Source: an uncultured Chitinophagaceae bacterium | Lineage (GTDB): Bacteria > Bacteroidota > Bacteroidia > Chitinophagales > Chitinophagaceae | DNA: 64,000 nt | Assembly (NCBI GenBank): GCA_937858715.1 | Contig: CALLZY010000214.1 | Coordinates: 55,967 to 119,966, forward strand | Direction of reading: 5' to 3' | In this document: piece by piece, positions 53,331-60,185 of the stretch | How the letters are laid out: each line of letters opens with the position of its first letter | Numbering within the stretch: position 1 is the stretch's first letter | Notes under the pieces: generated by a model | What the model was told of the DNA's origin: nothing | Seen by the model: only the letters and a program-made list of their open reading frames with translations | Database searches by the model: none | Made by a program: the position numbers and the translations under genes

Positions 53331-54479
53331 CTACAATTGCTTTAGGGCAGCTTTCAGAAATGGCATCGTTGGCAGTGTTGAAATTATTTTCAACTCTTCT
53401 GCCAGCGATGTTTCGTTATCTAAAAACTTCAATACCTTCTGTGGCTCATTACTTTTAAATAATCTGGAAAAAATACTGTCACCGGGAAGTTTGTTATAAT
53501 ATAAAATATGCAGCAGCACATTATCATAAAAACGAAACCGCCGGGACGATAAAGGAAGCTGGCTCAATTCTTTTCCTTTGGAGAGAAAGTCAACAATTCT
53601 TTGTGCCTGTTTTTGTATAAATTGAAAAGTATAACCGCTGGATGCTTTTGTCTGTCCGCCGGCAGTACCGATATTGTAAATTTCGTTTTCTTCAAAGTAA
53701 AACCGGCGGCTCGTCATGGGTATAATGCCAAACTCTGTTTCAGTTACCCGATAATTTTTCAGGCCAAGATAGCCCTGAATGTACAGGTTCAGGCCGGCAT
53801 CATATTCGGCCTGTGACAGCAACTCTCTTGTAAACAATGTGTATTCAACAAGGGCTGTACGTTTATCAAAAGGCAACACATAAGCAAAGGTGGTCCCTTT
53901 ATTTTGCGGAACTCTGAAGTCCATCATCGTGGCAACCTCCGTGTTAAACGTATCGTTATCAGTTTCAATCACCCAACCTTTGAAATGCTGCAGCAATTGA
54001 ATATTCTTCTTTTCATTCCTGTCAGGCTGAACAATGGAATTAAATACAATCCCTGCGTCCAGTATTTTTGTTTCTCCATCTATGGAAAGTGTAAACTTAT
54101 TACCAGACCGGCTGAAACTCTTTACTTCTCCATACACCAGCTCAACAGAAGGATATGCAGAGATTTTATCAAAACAATAGTTGTAAAAATCAACTCCCCT
54201 TATCATCTTGTATTGATAGGGAGTAATAGTCATATCAGAAGAATAATCAGAACTGAAGAAAGAAATTGTATCCCACTTCTTATGTATGATACCTTCGAAA
54301 AAGCCCTCCCCGCTTTCCCAATAGCACCAGGTGCGGTCATTTTGTGTTTTAGCAGCCTTGTCAATCAGTAAAATTTTCTTATCTGCAAATTGCCTGTTCT
54401 CCAGCATTCGCATAATAATGCTCAGGCTGGCACAACCCGCACCGAGGAAAACATAATCGTATGACTGATGCTGTAGCAA
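53331..54479 (-). CDS. crtY: lycopene beta-cyclase
   Basis: The 382-residue protein has a dinucleotide-binding start (YDYVFLGAGCASLSIIMRML) and lycopene-cyclase marks (RTWCYWESGEGFFEGIIHKK and GTAGGQTKASSGYTFQFIQK). It would convert lycopene to beta-carotene. The only usable start before the binding motif is a TTG at 54479 immediately after the crtZ stop, with no intervening base. It is the last gene of the crtI-crtB-idi-crtZ-crtY operon. Confidence 0.9.
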   Translation of the reverse strand: MLQHQSYDYVFLGAGCASLSIIMRMLENRQFADKKILLIDKAAKTQNDRTWCYWESGEGFFEGIIHKKWDTISFFSSDYSSDMTITPYQYKMIRGVDFYNYCFDKISAYPSVELVYGEVKSFSRSGNKFTLSIDGETKILDAGIVFNSIVQPDRNEKKNIQLLQHFKGWVIETDNDTFNTEVATMMDFRVPQNKGTTFAYVLPFDKRTALVEYTLFTRELLSQAEYDAGLNLYIQGYLGLKNYRVTETEFGIIPMTSRRFYFEENEIYNIGTAGGQTKASSGYTFQFIQKQAQRIVDFLSKGKELSQLPLSSRRFRFYDNVLLHILYYNKLPGDSIFSRLFKSNEPQKVLKFLDNETSLAEELKIISTLPTMPFLKAALKQL

Positions 54480-54998
54480 TTAATCTTTCAGGTCTTTGTC
54501 AGGTGCATATTCAACCCGTTGGGCCCCGGCCATCAGTTTCTTATCACGGCGTACTTTATCCCAGTATTTTTTGGCCACAAATAAAAATCCAAAACTTTCA
54601 CCACGTTCTTTTCCCAAATGTTTGTGGTGCATTTTATGTGCCCAGCGGATAGCCCTTACATAAGTACCGTTGCTGCGGGTAAACCATTTGAAACGCTGGT
54701 GGATAATAACGTCATGCACCAGGAAATAAGCAGCCCCATAAACCATGATGGCATAACCAACTGATTGCTGCCACCACACATGATTGAAAGTACCGTTATA
54801 AATTAACAGGAAACTGGGCACAGCAAAGATTACCGCAAAGGCATCATTTTTTTCAAACACACCCGGCCTTACCTGGTGATGGTCTTTATGCAAATACCAT
54901 AAAAAACCATGCATTACATACTTATGTGTGCACCAGGTAACACCTTCCATTATTACAAATGTGGCTACAAAAACCAGGACAAACCAAACTACAATCAT
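54480..54998 (-). CDS. crtZ: beta-carotene hydroxylase
   Basis: The 172-residue membrane protein has the His-rich di-iron motifs of the fatty-acid-hydroxylase/CrtZ family: HKYVMHG, HKDHHQ, HDVIIHQ and HKMHHKHLG. It would add hydroxyl groups to beta-carotene rings, making zeaxanthin. The ATG at 54998 is chosen from a frame open to 55106; it lies 25 bases after the idi stop. The crtY start abuts its stop. Confidence 0.94.
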   Translation of the reverse strand: MIVVWFVLVFVATFVIMEGVTWCTHKYVMHGFLWYLHKDHHQVRPGVFEKNDAFAVIFAVPSFLLIYNGTFNHVWWQQSVGYAIMVYGAAYFLVHDVIIHQRFKWFTRSNGTYVRAIRWAHKMHHKHLGKERGESFGFLFVAKKYWDKVRRDKKLMAGAQRVEYAPDKDLKD

Positions 54999-55023: not shown

Positions 55024-55548
55024 CTAAACAGTATTTGCTTTCCAGTCTGCAATCTTATCAAAAGCGATGCGGAACCATGCCGTGAATTGCTCAGGATCTG
55101 ACGCAAGCCAGTTACGTACTGAATTCATATCCATGTACCGGAAATCCATCACTTCTTCAGAATTAAAACTGATTTCACCATCATAATAACCAACAAAAAC
55201 ATGGTCGAACTCATATTCAGTAAGCCCGTTTTCAAAATCAGCCTTATATACAAAATCGAATATTTTCTCAATAGACGTGGTAAAACCCATTTCCTCCTGT
55301 AATCGCCGTAATGCAGCAGCATGTGTATCTTCTCCCGGTGACGGATGGCTGCAACAAGCATTGGTCCACAAGCCGCCACTGTGATATTTGTCCATTGCCC
55401 GCTGCTGCAACAGCATTTCGCCTTTGCTGTTAAAAATAAAAACACTGAAGGCCCTGTGCAGTAACCCATCAGTGTGTGCCTTCAGCTTTTCGCATTCGCC
55501 GCTGGCATTATCTTCTTCATCAACTAATATCACTTTTGTTACATCCAT
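55024..55548 (-). CDS. idi: isopentenyl-diphosphate delta-isomerase (type I)
   Basis: The 174-residue enzyme interconverts IPP and DMAPP. Type I features are seen: the Nudix-like fold with GLWTNACCSHPSPGEDTHAA (catalytic Cys), AALRRLQEEMGF and the acidic FEYDHVF-like segment (EYEFDHVFVGYY), with catalytic Glu in SEEVMDFRYMD. It supplies isoprene units for the carotenoid genes. The start lies one base after the crtB stop. Confidence 0.95.
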   Translation of the reverse strand: MDVTKVILVDEEDNASGECEKLKAHTDGLLHRAFSVFIFNSKGEMLLQQRAMDKYHSGGLWTNACCSHPSPGEDTHAAALRRLQEEMGFTTSIEKIFDFVYKADFENGLTEYEFDHVFVGYYDGEISFNSEEVMDFRYMDMNSVRNWLASDPEQFTAWFRIAFDKIADWKANTV

Positions 55549-55549
55549 A

Positions 55550-56386
55550 TCAGATCATCCCCAGTTGATTTTTTACTCCGGCCCTGAATACAATATATGC
55601 TTTTAAAAAATCAGGAATGCGGATTCTTGATTCCAGGATACTCGAAGGCTTTAATCTCTTTATTTTTTTGAAGAGCGAAAGATAGTATTTGTATGCTACG
55701 TACACACCAAACCGGGCCTTGAGCGGCAACTGCTTTATTCCTTCAAACGCAGCCCTGAAATCCCCGGCAATATCTTTTTCAATCTGCTGCTTCTCTCTTT
55801 CTGTGAAATTATTAAAGTCACATCCGGGAAAATAAGTTCTGGAAAGGCCGGCATAATCAGCTTTGATGTCCCTTAGAAAATTTACCTTTTGAAAAGCTGC
55901 CCCCAGCGACCGGGCCGAAGGCTCAAGTTTTTCATATAGTGCCTTATCCCCTTCGCAAAAAACATACAGGCACATCAGTCCCACCACTTCTGCCGAACCA
56001 TAAATGTATTCTTCATACCCCAGCACATCATACACTTTTTTGCTAAGGTCCATCTCCATACTCCTGAAAAAAGCATCCACTAACTTAAGGTCAATATTGT
56101 ATTGATTTACGGTACGCTGAAAACTGTTAAGTACAGGATTCAGGCTGATCCCTCTCTTTATTGAATCATAAGTTTCTGCCTTAAACTGCTCCAGCAATTC
56201 TTCTTTATCATGGTCATGAAAAGTATCCACTATTTCATCGGCGAAGCGGACAAACCCATAAATATTAAAAATGGGCGTACGTAAATCTTTATGCAGCATA
56301 CGTATGGCCGAAGCAAAAGAGGTGCTGTACCGCTGTGTAACGATTTTGCTGCAAATTTCACTGGTTGAATGAAAAAGATGAACCAT
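55550..56386 (-). CDS. crtB: phytoene synthase
   Basis: The 278-residue enzyme joins two geranylgeranyl diphosphates into phytoene. Aspartate-rich motifs are seen in FVRFADEIVD and AFQKVNFLRDIKADYAGLSR, and RYSTSFASAIRMLHK fits the N-terminal squalene/phytoene synthase signature. The ATG at 56386 is chosen from a frame open to 56446, giving a gap of 16 bases after crtI. The length is usual for bacterial CrtB. Confidence 0.94.
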   Translation of the reverse strand: MVHLFHSTSEICSKIVTQRYSTSFASAIRMLHKDLRTPIFNIYGFVRFADEIVDTFHDHDKEELLEQFKAETYDSIKRGISLNPVLNSFQRTVNQYNIDLKLVDAFFRSMEMDLSKKVYDVLGYEEYIYGSAEVVGLMCLYVFCEGDKALYEKLEPSARSLGAAFQKVNFLRDIKADYAGLSRTYFPGCDFNNFTEREKQQIEKDIAGDFRAAFEGIKQLPLKARFGVYVAYKYYLSLFKKIKRLKPSSILESRIRIPDFLKAYIVFRAGVKNQLGMI

Positions 56387-56402
56387 AACTGAATATATGC
56401 TT

Positions 56403-57878
56403 TTATTGAATTGCTTTAATAACCTGTCCGGCAGCCACTTCACCACTTATCAATGAGGGCGGCACCCCGGGACCCGGAACTGTTAGCTGACCTGTATAGA
56501 ATAAATTCCTCACTTTTTTACTGCGACATGATGGCCTGAAGATGGCTGTCTGCTTCAGCGTATTGGCCAACCCGTAGGCATTCCCTTTAAAGGAATTATA
56601 GGCTTTTGTAAAATCGCTTACTGAAAACGTCTTCTTATACACAATGGCATCTGTAATTTTTTCACCGGTGATATCCTCCATGCGTTGAACAATTGCCTGG
56701 AAATATTTTTCACGAAGTGCTTCATCATCACCGTCCAAACCGGAGGCTACCGGCACTAAGAAAACGATGTTCTCGCAACCAGCCGGGGCAACCGTTTCAT
56801 CGGTTACGCTGGGGATACTTACATAGAACAATGGAGATGTTGGCCACTGCGGTTCTTTGTATATTTCGTAGCCATGCCTGTCAAAAGGAACATCAAAAAA
56901 TAAAGAGTGATGAACCGGCCTGTTCAATTTCTTATTTAAACCAACATAATACATCAGGCAGGAAGGTGCCATCACTCTTTTCTCCCAGAAATTTTCTTTG
57001 TACGAACGGAAGGCTTCCGGAAGCAGTTTTGTTTCTGTAAACTGGTAATCGGCACCGCTGATAACCGCATCAGCAGCATATACCGCCTTATTGGTTTTTA
57101 CAGCCTGCGCCGATTTGTTTTGTATGGAGATTTCTGTAACGCTTTCTGAAAACCGGAATTGCACACCAAGCTCAAGGGCCAGCCTGTACATACCGTCAAC
57201 CACTGCATACATACCGCCTTGTGGGTACCATGTGCCCCCTTTTATATCCGCATAGTTCATCAGGCTGTAAAGAGCTGGTGTGTCCTGCGGGAGTGCTCCT
57301 AAAAATAATACGGGGAACTCCATCATCTGCTGCAGCTTGGGATGTTTAAAATAGGAAGCAATATGTTTTTTGATAGATGAGAACACCTGCAGCCTGAATA
57401 CCCCGCTGATGGTTTGCCAGTCGAGAAACTCTGTAAGAGAAAGTCCCGGCTTGTACACCAGTTTGTTCATGCCAGCATCGTACTTATAAGCGGCTCCTTC
57501 GAGAAAGGTATCCAGTTTTTCGGCGCTGCCCGGTTCTATACTCTCAAATACTTGCTTCAGCGCCTCATAATCAGCAGGCATATCTGTATATCCATCATCC
57601 CAATAGATGCGGTAGGAAGGGTCAAGCCTTTCTAACTGGTAATAATCAGAAACTTTCTTTCCGAACTGGGCAAAATAACGGTCAAATACATCAGGCATCC
57701 AGTAAAAACTGGGGCCCATATCAAAGGTGAATCCCTGTTCTATCAATTGCTGTGCCCTGCCTCCGGGTCCTTCATTCTTCTCAATAACAGTGACATTCCA
57801 TCCTTCTTTAGCCATATATGAGGCCGCCGAAAGACCGGCAAATCCGCTGCCAATTACTATTGCTTTCTTCTTTTCCAA
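56403..57878 (-). CDS. crtI: phytoene desaturase
   Basis: The 491-residue protein has an FAD-binding start (AIVIGSGFAGLSAASYMAKE) and the CrtI family C-terminal motif (NLFYTGQLTVPGPGVPPSLI followed by SGEVAAGQVIK). It desaturates phytoene to lycopene. It lies 7 bases downstream of the ECF sigma gene on the same strand, so the sigma factor is part of the same transcript. Length is usual. Confidence 0.96.
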   Translation of the reverse strand: MEKKKAIVIGSGFAGLSAASYMAKEGWNVTVIEKNEGPGGRAQQLIEQGFTFDMGPSFYWMPDVFDRYFAQFGKKVSDYYQLERLDPSYRIYWDDGYTDMPADYEALKQVFESIEPGSAEKLDTFLEGAAYKYDAGMNKLVYKPGLSLTEFLDWQTISGVFRLQVFSSIKKHIASYFKHPKLQQMMEFPVLFLGALPQDTPALYSLMNYADIKGGTWYPQGGMYAVVDGMYRLALELGVQFRFSESVTEISIQNKSAQAVKTNKAVYAADAVISGADYQFTETKLLPEAFRSYKENFWEKRVMAPSCLMYYVGLNKKLNRPVHHSLFFDVPFDRHGYEIYKEPQWPTSPLFYVSIPSVTDETVAPAGCENIVFLVPVASGLDGDDEALREKYFQAIVQRMEDITGEKITDAIVYKKTFSVSDFTKAYNSFKGNAYGLANTLKQTAIFRPSCRSKKVRNLFYTGQLTVPGPGVPPSLISGEVAAGQVIKAIQ

Positions 57879-57885
57879 ATTTTTA

Positions 57886-58395
57886 TTAATAACGTTTTAT
57901 CTGGTCCTTGAGCAATTTTCTGGCAAAATGTATCCTGCTTTTCACTGTTCCCAGGGGTTCTGATAATGCGTCAGAAATTTCATTGTATTTGTAGCCATCA
58001 AAGTATAACAAAAAAGGCGTTCTGTAAATTTCCGGCAGTTCATTTATTGCCTGTCTTATTTCTTTGGTGTTGATGTTCGTCTGTGCATCATTCTGAACAA
58101 TGGCTTTGGGTAAGCTGGCATGTTCACCCGAACCCGAAAGGGCATCACTGTTATAAATTACCCGCTGCTTCGATTTTCTGCGGTAGTCATTAATAAAAAT
58201 GTTCCGCATGATGGTAAATAACCAAGCCCGGATATTGGTGCCAACATTATATTTGTTGTGATTGGACAATGCCTTGTACAGCGTTTCCTGGAACAGATCA
58301 TTGGCTTCATCGCTATCCCTCGTAAGGCTGATAGCAAATGGTTTTAGAAAATCCTTGTTGTGTAAAAGTAATGCGGAGAATTCCTGTACTGACAT
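57886..58395 (-). CDS. ECF sigma factor at the head of the carotenoid operon
   Basis: The 169-residue protein shows sigma region 2 (RDSDEANDLFQETLYKALSN, about 24-43) and region 4 (LPEIYRTPFLLYFDGYKYNE and AEPLGTVKSRIHFARKLL-like segment, SEPLGTVKSRIHFARKLLKD). The ATG at 58395 is chosen from a frame open to 58440. One TAAACAAA word directly precedes the start codon. It is likely to drive carotenoid or light/oxidative-stress genes, by analogy with CarQ-type factors (inference). No anti-sigma gene is adjacent. Confidence 0.92.
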   Translation of the reverse strand: MSVQEFSALLLHNKDFLKPFAISLTRDSDEANDLFQETLYKALSNHNKYNVGTNIRAWLFTIMRNIFINDYRRKSKQRVIYNSDALSGSGEHASLPKAIVQNDAQTNINTKEIRQAINELPEIYRTPFLLYFDGYKYNEISDALSEPLGTVKSRIHFARKLLKDQIKRY

Positions 58396-58485
58396 TTTGT
58401 TTAAATTTTGATACAACAAAGTTAAACAAAATACTTTCATATAAACAAATTTTTGTTTAATTATTTTAAAAAATGATTAAACAAA
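58396..58485. promoter_or_regulatory. array of five TAAACAAA words, putative CarH operator
   Basis: TAAACAAA (or its complement TTTGTTTA) starts at 58396, 58423, 58442, 58452 and 58478. The pair at 58442-58459 forms the near-perfect palindrome TAAACAAATTTTTGTTTA. The array fills the 111-bp gap between the CarH-like gene and the ECF sigma gene. This repeated layout resembles operators of MerR-type carotenoid repressors. Confidence 0.7.
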
Positions 58486-58506
58486 ATATATATAGAACTG
58501 CTTTTT

Positions 58507-59382
58507 TTAATTGGAAAGATAGCTGATTACCTCTTGCACAGAGTGCATAAAATGGATATTGGGAAGCTCAGACTGATCATATTTTCTTGGCAAATGACCG
58601 GAAACTACAACAGGAGTTCCTGAAAAACAATTACTTACCTCCATTATGTATTCCGGAAAGTTTTGCCCGTTAATGACAGTGGTCAGGTGCATGAAGGCAA
58701 TATCCGGCTTTTTTAAGTTCAGTACAAATACGGCATCCTTAAGCGGAACATTTGCGCCAAGATATATGGTTTCCACACCCCTGGAACGTAATAAGTAATT
58801 AATATATAAAAGCCCAATTTCATGATGTTCACCTTCCGGGAGAAAAAGAAGAATGGTTTTCTCAGGTCTTTCAATTGCAGGGCAGTTATCAATTCCTACA
58901 ATTAATTTCTGCCTGATCATATTTGAAACGAAGTGTTCCTGTGCCGGGTTAATTCTTCCTGTTTGCCATAACAGTCCAATTCTTTCAAGAAAAGGAAAGA
59001 TAATCATGGTAACGGTGGCTTCCATCCCCTTTTCTGCAATATGCTCTCTCAGTACGGTATCAAAAGCATACACATTCAGGTCAACCATCAATTTTACCAA
59101 CTCGTTTATTGTCCGCTCAGTAACAGACCCGGCCGTATTGAGTTCAATTATCTTAGCAGAAATTTCCGCCGGATCCATCTTATCCAGCTTTGAAACCTTA
59201 AAACCATTTTTGTTAAGAAGTGAGATATTGAGGATGGTCTTTAATTCCTCATTGGAATAGTTACGGATATTAGTATCAGTCCGCTGGGGCTTCAGAAAGC
59301 CATAACGCTGCTCCCAGATACGTATGGTATGAGCTTTAATTCCCGAAAGATTTTCCAAATCCTTAATGGTAAACATCTCCAT
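58507..59382 (-). CDS. carH: MerR-family regulator with B12-binding domain (CarH/LitR-like photoreceptor)
   Basis: The 291-residue protein has a MerR helix-turn-helix (about 3-70; MFTIKDLENLSGIKAHTIRI, WEQRYGFLKPQR), a four-helix bundle and a B12-binding domain (about 175-291). Key motifs fit adenosylcobalamin photoreceptors: W139-x9-E149-H150 (WQTGRINPAQEH) and E185-x-H187-x-x-G190 (EHHEIG), where His187 would bind cobalt. CarH-type proteins repress carotenoid genes in the dark and let go in light. Its position in front of the crt operon matches that role. Light response here is inferred, not shown. Confidence 0.88.
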   Translation of the reverse strand: MEMFTIKDLENLSGIKAHTIRIWEQRYGFLKPQRTDTNIRNYSNEELKTILNISLLNKNGFKVSKLDKMDPAEISAKIIELNTAGSVTERTINELVKLMVDLNVYAFDTVLREHIAEKGMEATVTMIIFPFLERIGLLWQTGRINPAQEHFVSNMIRQKLIVGIDNCPAIERPEKTILLFLPEGEHHEIGLLYINYLLRSRGVETIYLGANVPLKDAVFVLNLKKPDIAFMHLTTVINGQNFPEYIMEVSNCFSGTPVVVSGHLPRKYDQSELPNIHFMHSVQEVISYLSN

Positions 59383-59432: not shown

Positions 59433-60185
59433 CTATAAACTGGCATTAATCAGTTTACCAGAATCCAGCAGTTTCTGAAAAACAGTATTGGCTGTTACAG
59501 TGTGAAGCCCGTCAAGGTGCCTGAACCCGTGAAGGTCGGTTCCCACCAATTCATAATATCCTTTCTTTACAAGATAATTCGCCAGTTCCTGCTGCGATTT
59601 TCCATAGTGCCCCGCCAGCGACAGGGCATTCAACTGGAAATAACAACCAGTTGCCTTCAGTTCATCGTACAGTTCTTTATTTCCTTCAAGGTAAATGTAC
59701 CGTTCAGGGTGGGCAATTACCGGCAGATAGCCCTGCATCTGCATTTCAAACAATACATCCTTTAATCCCCGTGGCTCATACGCCATCGAAAATTCGCAGA
59801 GCACCATATTATCTTTTATCGTCAGCAGCTTTTCGTTTTGCTGTAACAGATCATCCACATGTTCATCAAGGAAATATTCGGCAGCAGCATATATCTCGGC
59901 CTCAATTCCTGCATCTGCGATAGCCTTTCTTACCTGTTCCAGCTTTTCCAAGATGATGGTGGGAGTATTCCGGTACATATCCCACATGATATGCGGTGTG
60001 GTGATGAATTTGGTATAGCCCAATTTCATCATCCCTCTTATAAGCTCAATGGTGGTATCCATATCCTTCGAGCCATCATCAATGCCCGGCAGCAAATGCG
60101 AATGCATATCCGTTTTCAGCATGCTGAAATCAGCCTTTTCTGTCTGTGCCGCAGTCTTCTTTGATCTGGAAAAAAAATTGAACAT
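59433..60185 (-). CDS. CpsB/CapC-type PHP-domain tyrosine phosphatase
   Basis: The 250-residue protein has the metal-binding motifs of the PHP superfamily in order: DMHSHLLPGIDDG, TTPHIMWD, AAEYFLD, AHPERY and GTDLHG. This matches the CpsB/YwqE/CapC phosphatases, which dephosphorylate tyrosine kinases controlling capsule or exopolysaccharide export. The N-terminal 20 residues are a polar extension. It closes the visible part of the surface-glycan cluster. It has no predicted membrane segment. Confidence 0.9.
   Translation of the reverse strand: MFNFFSRSKKTAAQTEKADFSMLKTDMHSHLLPGIDDGSKDMDTTIELIRGMMKLGYTKFITTPHIMWDMYRNTPTIILEKLEQVRKAIADAGIEAEIYAAAEYFLDEHVDDLLQQNEKLLTIKDNMVLCEFSMAYEPRGLKDVLFEMQMQGYLPVIAHPERYIYLEGNKELYDELKATGCYFQLNALSLAGHYGKSQQELANYLVKKGYYELVGTDLHGFRHLDGLHTVTANTVFQKLLDSGKLINASL

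Follow-up and report, generated by a model that had tools for sequence, protein, structure and literature searches.

Organization of the locus

What does a B12-type MerR regulator read in the DNA ahead of a carotenoid operon, and is light the signal that it conveys? The question is raised by a locus found in the window (the whole 64-kb stretch of DNA analysed), where genes are transcribed from the minus strand in the order regulator, 111-bp gap, ECF sigma, crtI-crtB-idi-crtZ-crtY, down to position 53331 (Table 1). The first-pass annotation had placed the regulator gene facing an array of repeated words located in the gap. As every gene lies on the minus strand, the regulator is found instead upstream of the array, in tandem with the other genes. 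The W-x9-EH and ExHxxG motifs attributed to the MerR protein are both present in its ORF, and family matches confirm ECF sigma, crtI, crtB, idi and crtY, which share its strand. The presence of crtZ in the cluster is upheld by evidence of another kind. The gene had no match in Pfam or NCBIfam searches, and its assignment rests on homologues found at the equivalent place of related clusters and on histidine motifs that we take to be of the carotene hydroxylase type. For the sigma gene, the probable start codon is at 58395 (MSVQEF), instead of the ATG at 58440 given in the ORF list. A CpsB/CapC-type capsule gene (59433-60185) is located directly upstream of the regulator, and 38 of the 90 family loci described below have a homologue no more than 2.5 kb upstream.

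Table 1. Genes and putative regulatory elements of the locus (window positions)
Feature	Position	Strand	Basis
CarH/LitR-like MerR regulator with B12-binding domains, 291 aa	58507..59382	-	domains, motifs, AlphaFold model, Foldseek
ECF sigma factor, 169 aa	57886..58395	-	Sigma70_r2 and r4_2
crtI, phytoene desaturase	56403..57878	-	NCBIfam CrtID, 740 bits (cut-off 640)
crtB, phytoene synthase	55550..56446	-	SQS_PSY; listed GTG start overlaps crtI, true start uncertain
idi, isopentenyl-diphosphate isomerase	55024..55548	-	IPP isomerase family match
crtZ, probable carotene hydroxylase	54480..54998	-	homologues in related clusters; start uncertain
crtY, lycopene cyclase	53331..54479	-	Lycopene_cycl
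IR1, distal palindrome TGTTTA-N18-TAAACA	58454..58483	-	exact match; contig 114420-114449 (window offset 55966)
IR2, proximal palindrome TGTTTA-N19-TAAACA	58398..58428	-	exact match; contig 114364-114394; conserved
Probable -7 promoter box TAACTTTG in IR2 left arm	58417..58424	-	conserved TAnnTT[TC][GA]
Fifth word, its TTTG (58446-58449) at -33 position	58442..58449	-	TTTG recurrence among loci

The repeated words form two palindromes

Five TAAACAAA words had been noted in the 111 bp separating regulator and sigma genes, and they are indeed found at 58396, 58423, 58442, 58452 and 58478. In 20,000 dinucleotide shuffles of the stretch the word was found at most four times, a figure reached once. 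A look-elsewhere control gave a weaker result, as the commonest 8-mer of any kind occurred five or more times in 135 of 5,000 shuffled stretches. Over the whole window the word is not enriched (11 observed, mean of 8.99 expected). Conservation was therefore used as evidence, and it is the decisive evidence for the array.

Four of the five words make up two copies of a palindrome, TGTTTA-N18/19-TAAACA. The proximal copy, IR2, ends immediately before the start codon of the sigma gene. The exact pattern occurs five times in the genome hosting the locus, twice here and three times inside ORFs; a reversed control pattern occurs three times.

Conservation in the family

The regulator was matched in 128 of 195 genomes of the family (Chitinophagaceae). 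Ninety family loci, corresponding to the 30 best regulator matches and to 60 picked from the match list, were read, and 78 of them include a sigma gene. The palindrome is exact in 74 of these 78 regulator-sigma loci, 71 having it in the proximal position and three having it overlap the regulator gene at its end. The remaining four either carry one mismatch (L043, L085) or are rearranged (L017, L038). Considering only gaps of at least 60 bp, 72 of 75 host an exact palindrome, against a mean of 0.025 and a maximum of 1 in 200 rounds of shuffling; the three gaps shorter than 60 bp have the palindrome too, extending into the regulator gene. The spacing is 19 in 61 of the 75 gaps and 18 in 21, the next best being found in three. 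The proposal of an operator array implied that close relatives with the same gene order should have it, and the palindrome is found in them.

The array claim stands in part. A likely operator lies within the array, but its form is that of a long-spaced palindrome present in one or two copies, and not of five words. A second copy, allowing one mismatch, is located 55-57 bp upstream in 40 of the 71 loci featuring an exact proximal copy, and TGTTTA occurs at the place equivalent to the fifth word in only about 5 of 78 gaps. A helical phasing of IR1 and IR2 was considered and discarded, as the distance of 55-57 bp seen in the family becomes 42-44 or 62-64 in several loci outside it.

The -7 box of Bacteroidota promoters has the consensus TAnnTTTG. 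Of 71 loci, 68 have the related motif TAnnTT[TC][GA] at the left arm of IR2 and 28 the strict consensus, compared with 3 that have the related motif on the mirror side; by its sequence, the arm resembles a -7 box. At a distance of 19-22 bases upstream of IR2, the place of the TTTG of the fifth word in the window, these 71 loci have 27 occurrences of TTTG. Both the palindrome and its overlap with a promoter-like box emerge from the comparison of loci. The arm resembling a -7 box, and a fifth word overlapping the -33 position, could be taken to mean that the words are elements recognized by the sigma factor, or belong to the usual A/T-rich promoter or leader of Bacteroidota, the regulator having no site there. 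The fixed spacing of the two arms argues against this, as do the data reported in the next section, and we regard such an origin of the words as very improbable.

In L017 and L038 the sigma gene and crtI are separated by a GC-rich inverted repeat with a T-run after it, which by eye resembles an intrinsic terminator. Such a repeat could uncouple the expression of the two genes.

Natural losses and relocations of the palindrome

Genomes in which regulator, sigma gene and crtI are not all together tell whose site the palindrome is. In five genomes from five genera, sigma-crtI genes are found without a regulator match, and in none is the palindrome located directly before the sigma gene (Fisher p 2e-6, relatedness ignored). 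A one-mismatch match lies about 280 bp upstream in a locus of this type (L103). No palindrome was found at 13 crtI loci having neither regulator nor sigma gene in the stretch, of which 12 are from genomes without a regulator match and one is from a genome (G003) with a distant match. Where the regulator is present in the genome, not adjacent to the sigma gene, an exact palindrome still precedes the latter (7/7 genomes); five of these genomes have the regulator on another contig, and in the other two it is oppositely oriented, at distances of 1.6 and 3.1 kb. Finally, in 15 loci a regulator lies beside crtI and the stretch lacks a sigma gene. All have the palindrome with at most one mismatch, 14 of them exactly, before the regulator gene, crtI, or both. 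The regulators of these loci are more distant (34-45% identity); a palindrome is found at crtI also in L062, which has a closer regulator.

Some loci depart from the rule. L131 has regulator, sigma gene and crtI, and lacks the palindrome. L111 and L112 have kept it, in genomes where the only regulator match was a distant one; both contigs end where a neighbouring regulator would be. Nine crtI genes (L101, L132, L133, L144-L146, L152, L154, L155) have no adjoining regulator or sigma gene and come from genomes with some regulator match. Three of them have a one-mismatch palindrome, six have none.

Across the genomes compared, the palindrome tracks the regulator, the two being co-inherited; the regulator would bind the palindrome directly. 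The absence of the palindrome from the sigma genes of the five genomes without a regulator match, and its presence at crtI or at the regulator gene where a sigma gene is not nearby, are at odds with the words being sigma or promoter elements.

The same loci bear on the two-step switch envisaged in the first-pass annotation, considered here in the form that the sigma factor, once made, would be required for the transcription of crt or of distant stress genes. A precedent is provided by LitR-LitS of Streptomyces (PMC12705666), and the frequency of the sigma gene in the family loci is in keeping with such a role. In L146, L154 and L155, moreover, a regulator-sigma operon coexists with a crtI located elsewhere without a palindrome of its own, so that another route would be needed if this crtI is light-controlled. 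Set against this, the unlinked crtI genes of L144, L145 and L152 are those with one-mismatch palindromes, and the palindrome reaches crtI or the regulator gene also where the sigma gene is not nearby. No promoter-like motif common to 15 sigma-crtI gaps longer than 50 bp was seen by eye in the last 130 bases, at most, of each, and no sigma-factor target was found in this way. An obligatory sigma step is a possibility to be kept in mind, with the odds somewhat against it.

Half-sites of the palindrome and of the CarH operator

The CarH half-site reported in PMC8156234, nAnnTnnACAn, is matched by that of the palindrome, TTAAACA with a preference for A at -3; this A is, in the left arm, shared with the promoter-like box. 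The arrangement of half-sites differs. The CarH operator is described in PMC9304148 as made of tandem direct repeats (nnnnTnnACAn, 11 bp), three of which are found in Thermus. In our set of 71 loci, TnnACA is found once at -11 and never at -22 or -33, counted from the right arm of the proximal palindrome; the +11 position could be read in only three. Since TnnACA is nearly absent at 11-bp steps, the tandem direct-repeat operator of CarH is not used here. In the palindrome, half-sites point outward and are 24-25 bp apart. According to PMC9304148, one head-to-tail dimer of Thermus CarH contacts repeats 1 and 3, two 11-bp steps apart. By analogy, a dimer with flexible linkers may span the palindrome.

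The regulator and its cobalamin pocket

The assignment of the regulator to CarH/LitR-like proteins is borne out by a MerR domain, two B12 domains and a conserved AdoCbl pocket. MerR_1, B12-binding_2 and B12-binding all score above the Pfam cut-off. The NCBIfam CarH equivalog is not reached (110 bits, cut-off 400), but is still the top-scoring NCBIfam model. By sequence, the best-matching solved structures are 3whp, which carries the label of a probable transcriptional regulator, and 5c8d, a CarH. The AlphaFold2 model of the regulator (mean pLDDT 89.4) has Thermus CarH 5c8d (E 1.9e-16) and 5c8e as top Foldseek matches. TM scores are 0.5-0.6 for the full chain, and the B12 domain taken separately reaches as much as 0.81 (target-normalised). 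Between the DNA-binding domains of the regulator and of CarH the alignment is good.

Pocket residues were compared in 134 proteins, 111 from the family set and 23 from outside. W139, E185 and H187 are kept in all, E149 in 133 and H150 in 132, and the conserved pocket is thus a product of this comparison. The position of His132, which serves Thermus CarH as a ligand in its bis-His light state, is occupied by Q140 here, and histidine is found there in only 2 of the 134 proteins. The class I B12 motif, given in PMC8156234 as ExHx2G-x41-SxV/T-x22-27-GG, is matched in part: ExHx2G and the spacings fit, and HLT and SG replace SxV/T and GG. The replacements are typical of the group, as H232 is found in 84 of 84 close relatives and SG (261-262) in 83 of 84; outside the family, residue 232 is mostly V or I. 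The light-sensing signatures GxxW, EH, GxxH and GxxxP reported in PMC11796333 (SignatureFinder) are all present in the regulator of the window; among 84 close relatives, only 67 retain the G of GxxH.

An adenosyltransferase gene (PF01923) is found in 192 of 195 family genomes, that of the window included, so that AdoCbl can presumably be made from cobalamin. The gene was also considered as a discriminator, and at this frequency it is uninformative between genomes.

These features can be read in two ways. The regulator may sense the level of AdoCbl, or redox state or oxygen, and not light; lacking His132, it would then bind AdoCbl and DNA without being usefully released by light. His132 is indeed replaced in 132 of the 134 proteins compared, and the B12 motif is altered in its second half. 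A 2023 study found His132 necessary for the break-up of the tetramer in light and the H132A mutant of Thermus CarH mostly tetrameric after light, while noting an earlier report of dissociation (PMC10442372). Against this reading, the regulator has the full set of light-sensing signatures, and its apparent targets comprise pigment genes together with, in a single genome, a photolyase gene. Moreover, CtMerR and a photocobilin, which have Arg and Gln, respectively, at the 132 position, are named as photoreceptors in PMC11796333. We consider sensing of AdoCbl or redox unlikely. With pocket and signatures kept, a response to light is likely, as judged from residues, and light is presumably the signal; with His132 replaced and the B12 motif altered, the response would need a light state differing from the bis-His one.

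Proposed mode of action

We favour, with a probability of about 0.68, the view that the regulator is an AdoCbl-dependent dark repressor of the CarH/LitR type, acting on the sigma-crt operon and released by light. In the dark, the AdoCbl-bound protein would occupy both TGTTTA-N18/19-TAAACA palindromes, IR1 upstream of the -33 position and IR2 over the -7 box and the start region, and transcription of the operon would be blocked. Light would break the Co-C bond, the regulator would leave the DNA, and the operon, ECF sigma gene first, would then be transcribed.

The sign of the regulation deserves comment. Classical MerR proteins are often activators, and act at the spacer between two promoter boxes. 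The regulator has a MerR-type DNA-binding domain and IR1 lies upstream of the -33 position, as would suit a protein activating the sigma-crt promoter; a Streptomyces paper of 2025 has LitR promoting litS transcription in light (PMC12705666). IR2, however, covers the -7-like box and the start region, and not the spacer between boxes. Repression fits because of this overlap, and activation appears quite improbable.

Palindromes outside the family and away from crt genes

Within the class Bacteroidia, 198 of the 296 genomes sampled, family members among them, gave a regulator match. The best 23 loci outside the family include 14 with a sigma gene, and all 14 have the palindrome before it with at most one mismatch (11 exact). 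A further set of named records, the best 80 of at least 597, overlaps the family set and is therefore not independent of it; among its 72 regulator-sigma loci, 65 have an exact palindrome, four a one-mismatch palindrome and three none (L281, L285, L290). The names in this set point to Chitinophagaceae as the family; records from Algoriphagus and Marinifilum, which we take to lie outside the family, are among these best 80 matches.

Twenty exact matches away from crt loci, hand-picked among the matches listed, were inspected for a wider regulon. In a single genome the palindrome is located 7 bp upstream of a DNA photolyase gene (L165:1989-2018). Others are found 8 and 38 bp upstream of two fasciclin-domain genes (L166:353-382; L167:2006-2035), just upstream of an SDR gene (L172:1986-2015), and 3-9 bp upstream of ECF sigma genes resembling that of the window (L168, L170, L171, near position 2000). 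In two different genomes the palindrome lies 160 bp upstream of a primary-type sigma-70 gene (L158:2041-2070, L161:1990-2020). The rest have targets apparently unrelated to light, and one match is inside an ORF. By position, the palindromes at photolyase, fasciclin and SDR genes may mark additional light-regulated genes. A general link to photolyases was rejected, because among 8 photolyase matches in 40 chosen genomes only the starting one had the palindrome. In genome G160 a photolyase gene adjoins a second MerR-B12 paralogue, which is more distant (39% identity; L179:2934-3716).

Relation to known systems

The regulator shares with Thermus thermophilus CarH (PDB 5C8D/5C8E/5C8F) a MerR domain, a four-helix bundle and a Rossmann B12 domain, as well as W-x9-EH, ExHxxG, the half-site core TnnACA and crt targets. 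It differs in the replacement of His132, in the palindromic site and in the presence of an ECF sigma gene at the head of the operon. The absence of histidine at the 132 position is shared with CtMerR of Chloracidobacterium thermophilum (PDB 8JBS/8JBT), a MerR-family B12 photoreceptor described in PMC11796333.

In Streptomyces coelicolor, LitR-LitS similarly unites a B12-type MerR regulator, an ECF sigma factor and crt genes in one system. For Streptomyces, PMC12705666 reports that the litS promoter is where LitR acts and that crt is transcribed by RNA polymerase containing LitS; the two-step idea of a regulator acting through sigma on crt is already known from there. In the window, unlike in LitR-LitS, the sigma gene comes first in the operon, ahead of crtI-crtB-idi-crtZ-crtY, and the palindrome overlaps the promoter-like box. 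Palindromes with TnnACA-type half-sites, two per promoter, are also recognized by the class II LitR proteins PmlR2/PplR1 of Pseudomonas (PMC9758184). Their operator, TGTACA-N12-TGTACA, has half-sites which in our reading point inward, whereas they point outward here; moreover, as described in the same source, these proteins have one half of the B12 domain, probably do not bind B12, and have a LOV photoreceptor as partner.

Light-induced carotenoids have been reported in a Chryseobacterium, where the regulator is given as unidentified in PMC7064467. In the open-licence literature searched, no account was found of this operator or of a regulator-sigma-crt arrangement in Bacteroidota. We tentatively propose, at slightly less than even odds, a Bacteroidia branch of B12 repressors that would dispense with the bis-His state and the 11-bp repeats. 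Its members would read a palindrome whose half-sites are separated by more than two turns of the helix, probably as dimers, and control carotenoid genes mostly through a sigma-led operon, the palindrome being movable to crtI, to the regulator and to other light-stress genes.

The palindrome provides a candidate operator, exact in sequence, for a possible main light or B12 switch of carotenoid genes in Chitinophagaceae and other Bacteroidia, and its natural losses and relocations serve as comparative controls. The action of a CarH-type protein without His132, and the use of its DNA-binding domain on a palindrome, become testable. The recurrent pairing of regulator and palindrome suggests a common, little-studied way to switch on sun-protecting pigments.
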